NCBI GenBank assembly: GCA_028285525.1
Contig: JANQOZ010000050.1
Coordinates: 1-64,000, forward strand
From: Lysobacterales bacterium
Lineage (GTDB): Bacteria > Pseudomonadota > Gammaproteobacteria > Xanthomonadales > SZUA-38
Length of the DNA stretch: 64,000 bases
Direction: 5' to 3'
This document shows positions 521 to 10,600 of the stretch, in pieces. The stretch's first letter is position 1; each line of letters begins with the position of its first letter. The position numbers were made by a program, and so were the translations under genes. The notes under the pieces are model-generated. The model was not told where the DNA came from and made no database searches. It was given only the letters and a program-made list of their open reading frames with translations.

Positions 521-1444
521 ATGAATCAGGATCCCGTTGCGACTATCGAATCGCTGCTCAACGAAAACCGCGTTGTGCTGTTTATGAAAGGCACGCCCCA
601 GGCGCCCCAGTGCGGTTTTTCCGCCACGGCCTCGGGCATTTTGAATTCCCTGGTGGACAGCGGTTACGCGACCTTTAACGTCCTGGAAGACAACGAGGTG
701 CGGGAGGCCATCAAAACCTATGGCGACTGGCCGACGATCCCTCAGCTGTATATCGACCGCGAACTCGTCGGCGGCAGCGACATCGTTTCGCAGATGTTTA
801 ACTCCGGTGAGCTGCACCAGATGCTGGGTATGGAGCCGCCGGACCGCACACCGCCGGAGCTGCACATCAGCGAGAAAGCGGCGGAGGCAATCCGGCAGGG
901 CATGGAGAGCCAGCCTGGTGCTGATCTCCACTTCGCTATCGACGAATACTGGCGCTGTCAGTTTTCGCTGGAGCCGGCTTCGGGTGATGAGATCCGCAGC
1001 GAAGCGGGCGGCATCACCTTCCACATGGATATCAATACCGCCCAGCGTGCCAAGGGCGCCAAGATCGATTTTGAAGACACGATGCAGGGCACGGGCCTGA
1101 CCATCGACCTGCCCGAGGCGCCGCCGCCGGTGCTCGCACTGTCGGTCACCGATCTCAAAGCGCTGGTCGACGCAGGCAACGCACCGGCGGTCTACGATGT
1201 GCGTCCGGCCAGCGAGCAGGAGCAGGTGTCGCTGCCGTTCACCACGCCGCTGACGCGGGAGGAAATGCAGACGATCAACGCGCTGCCCAAGGACACGCCG
1301 ATCGCGTTCCTGTGCCACCACGGCCGCTCGAGCGCCGGCACCGCCGAACATTTCCGCAAACAGGGCTTCACGAAGGTCTACAATGTCACTGGCGGCATCG
1401 ACGCCTGGTCCAAAGAAGTGGACAGCTCGGTACCCACGTACTGA
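521..1444 (+). CDS. Monothiol glutaredoxin / A-type-like / rhodanese fusion protein
   Basis: This 307-residue cytosolic protein has three parts. Residues 1-107 are a Grx4-type monothiol glutaredoxin with the CGFS active site at 31-34 and the WPTIPQLYI and GGSDI glutathione-binding stretches; this family binds and transfers 2Fe-2S clusters. Residues about 112-200 look like an A-type carrier (HesB/IscA) fold, but the C-terminal CGC pair is absent and only one Cys (in YWRCQF) remains, so normal cluster binding is unlikely. Residues about 208-307 are a rhodanese domain with the active-site loop CHHGRSS, Cys265. The combination suggests Fe-S or persulfide handling. The stop codon is 12 bp before tRNA-Arg. 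Confidence 0.88.
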   Translation: MNQDPVATIESLLNENRVVLFMKGTPQAPQCGFSATASGILNSLVDSGYATFNVLEDNEVREAIKTYGDWPTIPQLYIDRELVGGSDIVSQMFNSGELHQMLGMEPPDRTPPELHISEKAAEAIRQGMESQPGADLHFAIDEYWRCQFSLEPASGDEIRSEAGGITFHMDINTAQRAKGAKIDFEDTMQGTGLTIDLPEAPPPVLALSVTDLKALVDAGNAPAVYDVRPASEQEQVSLPFTTPLTREEMQTINALPKDTPIAFLCHHGRSSAGTAEHFRKQGFTKVYNVTGGIDAWSKEVDSSVPTY

Positions 1445-1456
1445 CGAAAAAATCAC

Positions 1457-1533
1457 GCGCCCGTAGCTCAGCTGGATAGAGCATCAGGCTTCGAACCTGA
1501 GGGTCGGGAGTTCGAATCTCTCCGGGCGCGCCA
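1457..1533 (+). tRNA. tRNA-Arg (anticodon TCG)
   Basis: A complete cloverleaf can be drawn: acceptor stem GCGCCCG (1457-1463) with CGGGCGC (1523-1529), D arm GCTC/GAGC, anticodon stem TCAGG (1484-1488) with CCTGA (1496-1500), seven-base loop CTTCGAA with anticodon TCG (1491-1493), and T arm GGGAG/CTCTC around TTCGAAT. Discriminator G1530 and CCA 1531-1533 are encoded. It reads CGA arginine codons. It follows the glutaredoxin-fusion stop codon by only 12 bp, so it either shares that transcript or has a promoter inside the gene. Confidence 0.97.
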
Positions 1534-1538
1534 TCCAT

Positions 1539-1566
1539 AAAAAAACGGCCTTCGGGCCGTTTTTTT
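1539..1566 (+). terminator. Rho-independent terminator after tRNA-Arg
   Basis: A-rich 5' arm and CGGCC pair with GGCCG around a TTCG tetraloop (1551-1554), and the 3' arm runs into seven T residues (1560-1566). The A-tract/T-tract symmetry means it could also act from the other strand. It sits 5 bp after the tRNA CCA end and before the tandem repeat array. Confidence 0.93.
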
Positions 1567-1612
1567 ATGGACGGCAGGCCCGGAGAACTTGAGGAGAACT
1601 CCGCGCGGCTCT

Positions 1613-1940
1613 GCCGCGCAGTTCGAGCCGAGCGCGCAAAGCGCGCGACGCATCGCGCAGGAGCGAAGCGACGAGCGACCCCCTCGAGGGGTGAGCCCGC
1701 GCAGCGGGCGAATCATCTCTCCGGGCGCAGGGCGGGGCACTGGCATAGAACGCCGGCAGTGCCGCGCAGTTCGAGCCGAGCGCGCAAAGCGCGCGACGCA
1801 TCGCGCAGGAGCGAAGCCACGAGCGACCCCCTCGAGGGGTGAGCCCGCGGCGCGGGCGAATCATCTCTCCGGGCGCAGGACGGGGCACTGGCGAAGAACG
1901 GCGGCAAAGCCGCGCAGTTCGAGCCGAGCGCGCAAAGCGC
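1613..1940. repeat. 148-bp tandem repeats (2.2 copies) carrying the tRNA-Arg 3' end
   Basis: Copy 1 is 1613-1760, copy 2 is 1761-1908, and a third copy stops matching after 32 bp (1909-1940), just before the end of the tetR gene. Copies 1 and 2 are the same length and differ at about 9 positions. Each contains ATCTCTCCGGGCGC (1715-1728 and 1863-1876), identical to the last 14 nt of the tRNA body (1516-1529). Each also holds short perfect hairpins: GCGCGC-AAA-GCGCGC, CCCCTCGAGGGG, and GCCCGC-N3-GCGGGC. Two of the differences fall in the 3-nt loop of the last hairpin, leaving its stem intact. Open frames across the array on both strands are low-complexity artefacts; the interval 1567-1957 holds no credible gene. 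Confidence 0.95.
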
Positions 1941-1957
1941 AGCACGATTCGAACGCT

Positions 1958-2542
1958 CTACCTCGCCAGGACAGCGTCCACAGTAAACGCCGCAACCCTC
2001 CGGAGCTGGGCCTCGTCACCAAAAGCCTTCTCCATCACCACCAGCCCCCGCGCTACCGCAACCAGGTGTTCCGCGGTCAGGTGTGGATCGCCATTGAACT
2101 CGCCGGTTGTGAGTGCTTCGGCGAGCGTGTCTGAAATCAGAGTGATCAGGCGCTGCAGGAGTTCTGCAAACGCCTGCCGGGTGGTGTCCTGCGTGTCCGC
2201 AATGGAGGGAATCTCCATGAGCGCCCGCGTCGTCGGGCAGCCGCGGTGCGGGGTGCCGGTGCAGTAGTTGCTGATTGAATAGTCGTAGAAGTCCGCGAGT
2301 CTCTGGCGCAACGGGCCCCGGCTGACTCGGCGCGCAACGTTTTCCAGGTAGTCATCAGCGTATTGTTGGTAGGCTCGCAGAAACAGCGCTTCCTTGCTGC
2401 CATAAGCGTTGTAAAGGCTGCCTCGCTTGACGCCCACTTCGTTGGCGATATCAGTGAGAGATGTCCCCCGCACGCCCTTGCGCCAGAACTGCTCGAAGGC
2501 GGCATCCAGTACTTCCTGTTCCTCAAACTGTCGCGGTCTCAT
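1958..2542 (-). CDS. TetR/AcrR-family transcriptional repressor
   Basis: The 194-residue protein has the N-terminal TetR helix-turn-helix at about residues 25-52 (TSLTDIANEVGVKRGSLYNAYGSKEALF pattern), followed by an all-helical ligand/dimer domain typical of the family (about 190-200 aa). Conserved CTGTPHRGC and alpha-helical regions resemble YcdC/AcuR-type members that control detoxification genes. It is transcribed away from the GST-like gene, and the 114-bp gap carries two matching palindromes that are probable binding sites. It probably represses itself and the GST gene. The 3' end abuts the tRNA-linked repeat array. Confidence 0.9.
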   Translation of the reverse strand: MRPRQFEEQEVLDAAFEQFWRKGVRGTSLTDIANEVGVKRGSLYNAYGSKEALFLRAYQQYADDYLENVARRVSRGPLRQRLADFYDYSISNYCTGTPHRGCPTTRALMEIPSIADTQDTTRQAFAELLQRLITLISDTLAEALTTGEFNGDPHLTAEHLVAVARGLVVMEKAFGDEAQLRRVAAFTVDAVLAR

Positions 2543-6557: not shown

Positions 6558-7673
6558 ATGAAACGTTTTATCGGGGCGATCATCATCACCGCTGCAGCCG
6601 CTGGAGGCGGCTGGTGGTATTTTCAGTCTGATTCCAGCTCCGAGGGCAGCGCGGCGCCCGCGCGTGGGCGGTTTAACGCGACGCCCGTTGTCGGCGTTAC
6701 GCCCGTGGCGCTGCAGACGTTTGTGCAGAACGTTGAGGGCCTTGGCACGGCGCGGGCCAACGAATCCGTCACCATTACCGCCAAGCTCACCGATACGGTT
6801 CGTCGCATCAACTTCGAAGACGGCCAGTTGGTCGAGCAGGGAGCCGTGCTGGTCGAGCTCACCAATCGCGAGCAGGAGGCGCTGCTCGCCGAGGCTCGCG
6901 CGGCCCTGGGTGATGCCGAAGCGCAGCTGAAACGCATTAATGATCTGGGCGCTCGCGGCCTGGCCGCGCAGTCCGAAGTTGACCAGGCGGTCGCCGCGGC
7001 CGACGGCGCGAAGGCCCGCCTGAACACCGTGCTGGCGCGCCTCCAGGATCGCCTGATTCGCGCCCCGTTTTCCGGCTTGCTGGGCTTTCGCCAGGTGAGT
7101 CCCGGGAGCCTCGTGACGCCAACAACCCCCATCACCACGCTGGATGACGTTTCGGTCATCAAGCTCGATTTCACGCTGCCCGAGACGCAGCTGAGTTTTC
7201 TGCAGCCGGGGCTCTCGATCAACGCTCGCAGCGCCGCCTGGGGTGACCGACCCTTCACAGGGGAGATCTCTTCCATCGGTTCGCGCATTGACCCGGTGAC
7301 CCGAGCCGTTGAGGTTCGCGCGTTACTGGACAACAGCGAGGGCCTGATCCGGCCCGGCATGCTGATGTCGGTTGCGGTGGCCAGCAACGAACATCAGGGG
7401 CTGGCCGTCGACCAGGGTTCGCTGGTGTCCATCGGCAACGTCACCTACGTGTACGTGGTGGACGACACGGACACCGCGCATCGCCGCGAGGTGCAGCTGG
7501 GTCTGCGGACTTTCGGTGAGGCTGAAGTGGTGAATGGTCTGCGCCCAGGCGAACGGGTGGTCACCGAAGGCGTCGGCAACATGCGAGACGGCATCAAGGT
7601 CTCCGTTAAAGGGCAGGGCCAGGCGAGGCCTCCCGCTGTCGGCGCCGCGGGCGGTACCGCCTCTAGCCTCTAG
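6558..7673 (+). CDS. RND efflux periplasmic adaptor (membrane fusion protein)
   Basis: The 371-residue product has an uncleaved or cleaved N-terminal membrane segment (residues 4-22, no lipobox Cys), then a lipoyl-like half motif (SVTITAKLTDTVRRINFEDGQLVEQGAVLVEL), an alpha-helical hairpin (about 95-150), the second lipoyl half (RLIRAPFSGLLGFRQVSPGSLV), a beta-barrel and a membrane-proximal domain. This is the standard order of HlyD/AcrA-type adaptors that join an inner-membrane RND pump to an outer-membrane channel. The pump gene follows 20 bp downstream, so they form an operon. No TolC-like channel gene is nearby, so an outer-membrane factor encoded elsewhere must be used. Confidence 0.93.
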   Translation: MKRFIGAIIITAAAAGGGWWYFQSDSSSEGSAAPARGRFNATPVVGVTPVALQTFVQNVEGLGTARANESVTITAKLTDTVRRINFEDGQLVEQGAVLVELTNREQEALLAEARAALGDAEAQLKRINDLGARGLAAQSEVDQAVAAADGAKARLNTVLARLQDRLIRAPFSGLLGFRQVSPGSLVTPTTPITTLDDVSVIKLDFTLPETQLSFLQPGLSINARSAAWGDRPFTGEISSIGSRIDPVTRAVEVRALLDNSEGLIRPGMLMSVAVASNEHQGLAVDQGSLVSIGNVTYVYVVDDTDTAHRREVQLGLRTFGEAEVVNGLRPGERVVTEGVGNMRDGIKVSVKGQGQARPPAVGAAGGTASSL

Positions 7674-7693
7674 GGCCCAGGAGACCCAAGACC

Positions 7694-10600
7694 ATGTGGT
7701 TATCCGATACGTCGGTCAAGCGACCGGTTTTTGCGACCGTCCTGTGCGCGCTCCTGCTGGCCTTTGGCGTCCTGTCCTTCCAACAGCTTCCGCTGCGAGA
7801 ATACCCGGACGTAGCCGCGCCCATCGTGTCGGTTTCGACCGGCTACCCTGGCGCGTCTGCCGAAGTTGTTGAGAAGCGCGTCACCCAGCTCGTAGAGAGC
7901 GAGATCAGCGGTATCGAGGGCATCAAGGCCATCACCTCGCGCTCTCGCGACGAGTTCTCGAGCATCAATATCGAGTTTGAGCTCGGCCGGGAAATCGAGC
8001 AGGCCACCAACGACGTGCGAGACCGTGTGTCGCGAATCGTGCGGCGCCTGCCCGACGACGTAGATCCTCCGCGGGTAGAGCGGCAGAACTCTGACGCACG
8101 ACCCATCATGTATGTCACGGTCAACAGCTCCGAGTTCGGCCTGATGGAGCTGACCGACTACGTTGAGCGCTACGTGATCGATCGGTTTTCGAGCATCACC
8201 GGGGTTTCCCAGATCAACCTGAACGGGGGCGGACGCCCCTCCATGCGCATCTGGATCGATCGCCAGGCGCTCGCCGCCCGTGGCCTGGCGGTCACCGACG
8301 TGGAGGAAGCGCTGCAGGCCGAAAACGTCGAGCTGCCGGCCGGCCGTATCGAGACTCGCGATCTGGAGTTTACGGTCCGCATGGGGCGCAACTACGTGAC
8401 CCCAGATGATTTTCGACGGCTGGTGCTGGCGACCGGGGCTGACGGCCACAACATCCGGCTGGGTGAGGTTGCCCGGGTGGAGGTGGGTCCGCGGGAGCAG
8501 CGGCGCTTTTTCCGCACCAATGGCCAGGACGCGGTCGGCATGGGCATCATCAAACAGTCCACGGCCAACACCGTTGAGGTGCTCACGGCGGTGACCGAGA
8601 TGATGGGCCGCGTGGAGGAGGATCTCCCGGACCATATGTCCATCGCGCGCAGCCAGGACGATTCGGTTTTCATTCGGGCGGCCATCCGCTCGGTCTTCCT
8701 CACCATCGGTGCCACCGTGGGTCTGGTCGGTCTGGTGATACTGCTGTTCCTCGGCAACCTGCGAGCGACGCTGATCCCGGTGCTGACCATCCCGGTCTGC
8801 CTGATTGCCGCCTGCATCGCGCTGGCGGCCTTTGACCTGTCGGTGAACCTGATCACGCTGCTGGCGCTGGTGCTTTCCATCGGGCTGGTGGTCGACGACG
8901 CGATTGTCGTGCTGGAGAACGTTCATCGGCGCATCGACTCGGGTGAGCCACCGCTTCTGGCGGCGTTTCGTGGGTCGCGTCAGGTAGGCTTCGCCGTGAT
9001 TGCCACCACCGCCGTCCTCGTCGCCGTGTTTATCCCCATCATTTTTCTCGACGACAACATCGGGCGGATCTTTTCCGAGCTCGCGGTGACCATTTCCGCA
9101 GCGGTAATCTTTTCCAGTGTGCTGGCGCTGTCGCTGGTTCCGATGCTGTGTTCGAAGATGCTTAAGCCCACGAATGACGGCAATCCGCTGTCTCGCTGGG
9201 TGGACGCCCGCTTTGACCGGCTGGCGGCAGGCTATCAGCGCGGGGTGGCGTTTGCGCTGCGGCAGTCCTGGGCTTTTGTGTTGGGTTTGCTCGGTGTGGG
9301 CGTTGGCCTCTTCTGGCTGTTCCAGACCGTACCGCAGGAGTATGCACCGCAGGAAGACCAGGGCATGTTCTACGTGCCCTTCAAGGCGCCGCAGGGTACC
9401 AGCATCAGCAAAATGGCTGGCTACATCCCCGAGCTGGAAGGGCCGATGCTCGACCTGGTGGAAAGCGGCGACGTGCTGCGTGGCGTGACGATTATTCCCG
9501 GCTTCGGCGGGACCGCAGCCAACCAGGGCGTGCTCGCCGTTGGGATGCATGAGTTTGAACCCGACAAGATGAGCACGCAGGAAGCGATGGGCCAACTGAT
9601 GGGGCAGTGGCGCAACATCGCTGATTTGCGGATGTTCACCTTTATGCGGTCTGGCCTGTCCCGCGGGGGCGGCGGCCAGCCGGTGCAGTTTGTGATCGGT
9701 GGACCGAGCTATGAGGAGCTTGCCCGCTGGCGTGACATCATGCTGGATGCGGTGGCGGAGAACCCTGGCTTCTCGCGGGTGAGCTCAGACCTCGAGGAGA
9801 CCCAGCCGCAGCTGATGGTCCGGGTTGATAAAGATCGCGCCGCCGCACTCGGCGTCAGCGTGCGCAACGTTGGCCGCACGCTGCAGGCGATGATGACCGA
9901 ACAGGCCGTGACCACGTACGTTGTCGACGGCGAAGAGTACGACGTGGTGATCCAAGCCGTAGCATCGCAGCGCGCAACGCCGTCGGACCTTTCCAACATC
10001 TATGTGCGCTCAGACGCCTCCGGTGAGCTGGTGTCGCTGAACAACCTGATCCAGGTGGAGGCCGTGGGCGGTGCCAGCAACCTCAATCGCTACAACCGTA
10101 TCCGGGCACTGACGCTGTCCGCGAGCCTCAAGGACGACTATGCGCTCGGCGAGGCGCTGGATTTCCTGGTTGAAACGGTTCGCAGCGAGCTGCCCGCGGG
10201 GGCACAGATCGACTACAAGGGGCAGTCGCTCGAATACAAAGAGGCCTCAGGTGCCATCTACTTTTCTCTGGGCATGGCGCTGCTGGTGGTGTTCCTGGTG
10301 CTCGCCGCGCAGTTCGAGAGCTTCAGCCAGCCGCTGGTGGTGATGATCACCGTGCCTCTTGCCATTATCGGCGGTCTGCTCGGCCTGCTGGCTTCAGGCC
10401 TGACGTTCAACATCTTCAGCCAGATCGGCATCATCCTGCTGGTGGGCATCGCCGCGAAAAACGGCATCCTGATTGTGGAGTTCATCAATCAGCTCCGCGA
10501 CAGCGGGCGTGACTTCGAGGAGTCGATCCTGACGGCAGCGCGCATCCGGCTGCGTCCTGTCCTGATGACCACCGTGTCGACCACCATCGGTTCAATTCCG

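Follow-up and report, generated by a model that had tools for sequence, protein, structure and literature searches.

Repeats that follow a tRNA gene and carry copies of its 3' end have so far been described mainly as a feature of the Escherichia coli tyrT locus, where they are called rtT. In E. coli K-12, a unit behind tyrT or tyrV reads, in order, GGGGAAGG (an inverted tail), TGAGAACCTT, AAGGTTCGA, hairpins, CCCGAAGGGTGAG and GAATA-ATCCTTCCCCCACCACCA. A role as a decoy or regulator in starvation was once proposed for these repeats. In Salmonella, rtT behaves as a 175-bp VNTR (PMC2658671).

The array considered here lies in a stretch of 64,000 nucleotides from a Lysobacterales bacterium, called the window throughout; its features are collected in Table 1. 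The original prediction, made from the letters of the window, held that the last 14 nucleotides of a tRNA-Arg body recur in tandem 148-bp units behind the gene, the third of them broken at 1941. An exact search bears this out. The 14-mer ATCTCTCCGGGCGC, which comprises the 14 bases preceding the last four of tRNA-Arg(TCG), stands at 1516, 1715 and 1863, and at no other site on either strand of the window; by estimate, some 1e-6 exact copies would be expected by chance in 350 bp. TRF, for its part, reports a single array at 1612-1940 with a period of 148, 2.2 copies, 95% matches and a score of 595. Unit 2 departs from unit 1 at 8 of 148 positions. Both contain the three perfect hairpins that had been predicted, and the replacement of CA by GC at 1702-1703 alters the loop of the last hairpin alone, leaving its stem intact, again as had been claimed.

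Table 1. Features of the tRNA-Arg(TCG) locus, in positions of the window.
Feature	Positions	Strand	Basis or remark
Upstream gene, glutaredoxin-like/rhodanese-like protein	521-1444	+	ORF; identity read off the translation, without family search
tRNA-Arg(TCG), T-loop TTCGAAT	1457-1533	+	ARAGORN; Rfam RF00005, 69.7 bits
Intrinsic terminator: 17-bp perfect stem, TTCG loop, T7	1534-1571	+	Sits between tRNA-Arg(TCG) and the array
Inverted (reverse-complement) copy of the tRNA 3' end	1572-1602	+	5' strand of outer helix P1
Helix P2, GAACT ... AGTTC with extended GCGCGGC/GCCGCGC hairpin	1596-1624	+	RNA fold; position homologous to GAGAACC...GGTTC elsewhere
Unit 1 core: T-arm 5' half (GTTCGA), hairpin insert, T-arm 3' half, acceptor 3' strand copy	1621-1728	+	
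Perfect hairpin GCGCGC/AAA/GCGCGC	1632-1646, 1780-1794		
Perfect hairpin ACCCC/CTCGA/GGGGT	1678-1692, 1826-1840		
Perfect hairpin GCCCGC/loop/GCGGGC	1695-1709, 1843-1857		
First distal copy of the tRNA 3' end	1715-1728	+	14/14
Unit 2 core	1769-1876	+	94% identical to unit 1 across the 148-bp unit; no preceding inverted arm
Second distal copy of the tRNA 3' end	1863-1876	+	14/14
Truncated third unit	1907-1940	+	34 bases match, two differences; ends about 1941
Downstream gene, TetR-like regulator, convergent	1958-2542	-	ORF; TetR from reading the translation

Overlooked in that first reading was an inverted copy of the tRNA 3' end, which stands directly behind the terminator and was found as a minus-strand BLAST self-match (1519-1586, 85%). 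In the RNA fold of unit 1, positions 1579-1586 of this inverted arm pair with 1718-1725 to give P1. The arm stands in front of unit 1 only, and is missing before units 2 and 3. Because the unit opens with GTTCGA, continues through hairpins, and closes with AATC, a T-stem and an acceptor strand, it can be read as a further 3' end of a tRNA whose T-loop houses a hairpin-rich insert.

The strong terminator that had been said to separate the tRNA from the array, unlike the arrangement in rtT, is a perfect palindrome, and as such possibly bidirectional. Its presence makes it doubtful that the array is cotranscribed with the tRNA. No sigma-70-like promoter was found in 1380-2100, and tRNA was the only known RNA family that Rfam placed above threshold in 1300-2200. 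Elsewhere in the window, a short 12-bp tandem repeat occupies 185-230 (3.8 copies, 70% matches).

How does this locus compare with rtT? Both arrays lie on the same strand as a tRNA gene and downstream of it (directly so in the window), both are tandem, and each unit is closed by a copy of that tRNA's 3' end, which in the window matches at 14 of 14 bases in two units. Common to the two are, further, an inverted T-arm copy with GAGAA (in the window before unit 1 alone), the GTTCGA before and AAT(C) after the hairpin insert, and a CCC...GGGNGAG motif. The original prediction, that this is the idea of rtT in another lineage and with another tRNA, is therefore supported in architecture, with E. coli rtT following the same grammar.

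Homology is a separate matter. The Rfam RtT model (RF00391) gives no match up to an E value of 1 in 1300-2200 and none in the window's own genome (G000), which leaves the array below the gathering score of 45 bits that marks membership. With a covariance model of our own (R1, built from 25 units of the wider family discussed below), the window reaches at most 4.9 bits, which is not significant. Window units thus score about 5 bits or less with R1 and nothing with RtT, so their homology to rtT runs through intermediates. Such intermediates exist. A related unit behind tRNA-Ser(TGA) in another genome (G003) is matched both by a window unit (BLAST E 3e-6) and, over its full length, by the RtT model (25.4 bits). 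In the window's order, the RtT model has matches in 41 of 151 genomes, 8 above the cut-off and many tandem; those that could be read follow tRNAs for Ser, Tyr and Glu, whose tails they match, and a small number sit at contig ends. Among 14 control genomes it matches in E. coli only. The array is real and conserved, a divergent one of the rtT type whose likeness to rtT in architecture is well supported.

The unit is not widespread away from tRNA genes, so that the refutation named beforehand for the prediction fails. Exact core matches in the same genome are confined to the window array, to a site behind tRNA-Arg(ACG), and to island-displaced fragments of a tRNA-Arg(CCG) tail; a core 18-mer, allowed up to two mismatches, likewise occurs outside the window array only behind tRNA-Arg(ACG) and at the Arg(CCG) tail fragments on contig C35. 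A dispersed genomic repeat was rejected on these grounds. In relatives, too, homologous units stand at Arg-ACG and Arg-CCG. The window's genome also has units built to this plan around other inserts, downstream of tRNA-Glu, tRNA-Ser(GCT) and tRNA-Tyr. All unit hosts there have the T-loop TTCGAAT, a sequence found in about 13 of the genome's 44 tRNAs. On contig C52 (L008, about 1780-1835), a run of CCTCCCTAA-type short repeats directly follows the second, partial unit after tRNA-Arg(ACG).

The Arg(CCG) fragments raise a different explanation of the tail copies, namely that they are attL/attR scars left by integrases that use tRNA 3' ends. Islands do, of course, move units. A phage-type integrase (PF00589) lies directly beside the intact tRNA-Arg(CCG), and a fragment of this tRNA's tail, with terminator and unit, lies at C35:23255; these two junctions suggest that an island carried the tRNA's former tail, with terminator and unit, away to the island's distal end. 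Viral contigs that bear units also do so as displaced tRNA-Ser tails. Yet scars would be unrelated between tRNAs, whereas here homology extends from one tRNA type to another in insert, inverted arm and motifs alike, and the gap between tRNA and unit is just 2-69 nt at most loci. The viral cases number only 4 contigs among 2.9 million, all of them displaced tRNA-Ser tails, and a phage-borne element was accordingly rejected as the main carrier. In the window, the array lacks the pairing of identical tRNA-end repeats with an adjoining integrase gene; the adjoining reading frames are glutaredoxin/rhodanese-like on the 5' side and TetR-like on the 3' side. This and the homology across tRNA types largely exclude an attachment scar as the origin, which makes the explanation highly improbable. 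As a separate observation on contig C35 (L007), the displaced Arg(CCG) tail, terminator and unit (2245-2620) are accompanied about 5.3 kb on by a second, partly duplicated unit (7660-7830); agactgtgcgagatttgtgcgag lies upstream of both, and these are probably nested genomic island junctions.

Are the repeats maintained, or do they merely accumulate? In a genome of the same genus (G001), the array is trailed by the same TetR-like neighbour gene. Between it and the window the core is 87% identical, as against 59% for the spacer and 79% for the flanking gene. Identity within an array is 94% in the window and 100% over 64 nt in G001, compared with 82% between species. Judged from these identities, the units show concerted evolution, and the core has not simply been left to decay. 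Part of this conservation of the core could come from gene conversion among paralogous arrays. The suggestion that the array might be a remnant holds in part for units 2 and 3, which lack the inverted arm; it does not hold for the core, which is well conserved.

The stems of the hairpins covary in relatives. In seven Arg-type units from three genomes, 100% of cells are paired over 16 pairs, and the insert between GTTCGA and AATC holds 8 double-change cells against 2.1 after shuffling (0 of 500 shuffles as high), located in the first and last hairpins. Among 99 diverse units, 260 double-change cells were counted, compared with 92 when shuffled and at most 87 when slid. These cell-based counts replaced a MAFFT/RNAalifold analysis of 25 units, whose signal was weak because P3, P4 and P6 misalign and because the search pattern fixes P2 and P5. 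Covariation in P1 is not independent evidence of selection, since tail tracking by itself makes P1 covary. At sites of disagreement between tRNA and tail copy, the inverted arm agrees with the tRNA in 11 cases and with the copy in 2, a ratio that drift of the copy alone would produce and that decides nothing, though it was counted against a tight coupling of arm to copy.

These results bear on a third explanation, in which the array is a neutral by-product. Here, the units would arise again and again by template switching at the palindrome of the terminator and by slippage from one tail copy to another, gene conversion would keep them like the tRNA, and the array would do nothing. Such events would leave a direct-inverted-direct order about a palindromic terminator, as seen in this lineage, and also the VNTR behaviour in Salmonella and E. 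coli and the truncated, arm-less units of the window. Such a process does not, however, account for a core that outlasts its spacer and neighbouring gene between species, for covarying helices, or for the same motifs behind different tRNAs in bacteria as distant as E. coli. The neutral explanation is thus unlikely.

The last point comes from a wider family. GTDB species genomes were scanned with a pattern made from inverted arm, T-arm and P5 motifs, and 98 matches were examined. Among the matches listed are Enterobacterales, Lysobacteraceae, Alteromonadales, Oceanospirillales, Thioalkalivibrio, Woeseiaceae and others. Ninety of the 98 follow a same-strand tRNA at a distance of 33-497 nt, and the other eight are within 300 nt of the end of the sequence examined. 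At least 12 of 14 positions match the 3' 14-mer of the unit's own tRNA in 78% of pattern units, compared with 0.6% for tRNAs of other amino acids. The plan, shared with E. coli rtT, is an inverted 3' end of the local tRNA, a T-arm 5' half, a hairpin insert, a T-arm 3' half, an acceptor strand and CCA. The invariance of TGAGAACC, GGTTCGA and CCGNAGGG in these units is partly built in, as the pattern fixed them.

The R1 model finds the family in 111 of 274 sampled genomes of the class (about 40%) and in 69 of 299 of the phylum; in the window's own genome it gives weak matches to the Tyr, Ser, Arg-ACG and Glu units. Among the best 59 R1 loci, 57 are downstream of a same-strand tRNA (54 of them within 69 nt), and in 46 of the 57 the tail is identical to that tRNA at 14 of 14 positions; the tRNAs are Gln, Tyr, Ser, Lys, Glu, Asp and Arg. 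Host tRNAs have the T-loop TTCGAAT in 188 of 196 cases, as opposed to 102 of 242 other tRNAs. A terminator lies between tRNA and unit in 85 of the 196, and never for Tyr or Gln-TTG. Outside the window's class, one family of the phylum sample (f201) forms a second stronghold, with units in many of the genomes sampled and as many as 8 in one genome. Two tRNA-Ser(GCT) loci may be noted besides. In one genome (G093, L088 1500-1800), the hairpin insert lies within the T-loop of a tRNA-Ser(GCT) body, and an intact tRNA-Ser(GCT) comes next; it looks as though genuine tRNA genes could house the insert or acquire it by recombination. In G003 (L074 1990-2060), tail and terminator form a long palindrome that microRNA models match with E about 1e-9, below their cut-offs.

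E. coli K-12, whose regions were read individually, has more members than those at tyrT and tyrV. Six matches to the family model lie in MG1655 after lysT, lysW, lysY, lysZ, lysQ and proK, without annotation in that record. Four of the lys units are short forms lacking the P2/T-arm part; the proK and lysQ units are full and canonical, which the window's are not. Terminators flank the proK unit on either side, and the window array is likewise preceded by one. E. coli genomes have 1-9 unit places each. In genomes other than MG1655, the same proK/lysQ-type sequences are labelled RtT sRNA by automatic annotation, so part of the family's spread is already in databases. A general account of such units behind many tRNAs was not found in the open-access literature. 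This broader family is the interesting part of the result: its members stand behind tRNAs for at least eight amino acids (Arg, Ser, Tyr, Gln, Lys, Pro, Glu and Asp), with ends that track the local tRNA. Because K-12 has members after tyrT, tyrV, proK and the lys tRNAs, the old question of the purpose and spread of these repeats becomes testable in a laboratory strain.

What, then, might the element be? The preferred reading, to which a probability of about 0.55 may be given, is an rtT-type tail array that is maintained by recombination and most likely acts at the level of DNA in this lineage. The element duplicates the 3' end of the preceding tRNA (T-arm and acceptor 3' strand), with a hairpin chain of some 80-90 nt in the T-loop; in the complete form, represented by unit 1, the inverted tRNA end makes of it a closed, multi-helix structure. 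It would be maintained by unequal recombination and gene conversion among the tRNA and its tail copies. As direct repeats, the tail copies would permit change in copy number, homogenisation of units, and matching to the local tRNA; for rtT, the Salmonella VNTR and the 1-9 places per E. coli genome speak for such change in copy number. The conserved object is the folded sense strand. The strong terminator before the array makes a DNA role, as sense-strand hairpins and spare tRNA 3' ends at a tRNA anchor site, the most likely one in this lineage; this step is the least certain of those proposed.

The hairpin loops can be brought to bear here. GNA triloops make up 39% of the insert hairpin loops, compared with 2% after shuffling and 0 of 59 nearby terminators; in a less biased subset (no P5, no pattern-chosen loci), the count is 75 of 247. 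GNA loops on G-C stems form very stable DNA mini-hairpins (PMC4686876). They are not the GNRA or UNCG loops usual for RNA, and this tells against the main rival of a DNA role. That rival is a trailer RNA, read through from the tRNA, in which the outer helix mimics the acceptor and T-stem and which acts once processed, for instance as the decoy or starvation regulator once suggested for rtT. In K-12, of course, RttR carries an annotation as a small RNA. No terminator precedes the Tyr and Gln-TTG units, and in the K-12 lys operon the units lie in between clustered tRNA genes. Unit 1, on its sense strand, gives a better fold than any of 200 shuffles (z -2.7), as against z -1.6 for the antisense strand, and there are conserved unpaired motifs such as GAGAA, present in 90 of 119 loci that were not chosen by the pattern, compared with a background of 10%. 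A strand bias in G-T over A-C mismatches was rejected as proof of RNA, the cases being too few (6 against 1) and P1 mixed except at one position. Against such an RNA stand the strong terminator before the window array, the lack of a sigma-70-like promoter in 1380-2100, and the terminators that precede units at many other loci. Here, a trailer RNA is therefore possible but doubtful, and we lean, with modest confidence, towards a DNA-level role at loci like this one. Behind tRNA-Tyr, tRNA-Gln(TTG) and in the E. coli lys operon, the element is probably also cotranscribed as a trailer or spacer RNA.

A bolder form of the DNA reading may be entertained, although it seems quite improbable. Here, the units would be folded single-stranded DNA recombination sites, in which inverted arm and tail copy rebuild a double-stranded T-arm target from which the GNA hairpins protrude, and a putative recombinase would insert and multiply them in palindromic TTCGAAT T-arms. 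No protein acting on the element was found. Were this true, the family would stand beside integron attC as its tRNA-targeted counterpart, with a wide distribution in Pseudomonadota.

The attC site is a folded single-stranded recombination site, and the likeness is by analogy: one strand of the unit would fold, with the inverted arm restoring a double-stranded core with bulged parts, as in attC. The two differ in that no integron integrase or cassette gene was seen with the unit. A second comparison is with REP/BIME elements, which are likewise short, hairpin-forming chromosomal repeats, and one program indeed classes rttR as REP-containing (PMC12306157); the units differ by their strict linkage to tRNA genes and by their tRNA-specific tails. 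With rtT, the differences are these. The window units measure 148 bp and those of E. coli 178 bp; the tail copies have 14 bases without CCA in the window and about 19 in E. coli; and the window array follows a tRNA-Arg, begins behind a terminator, and lacks the inverted arm in its second and third units.
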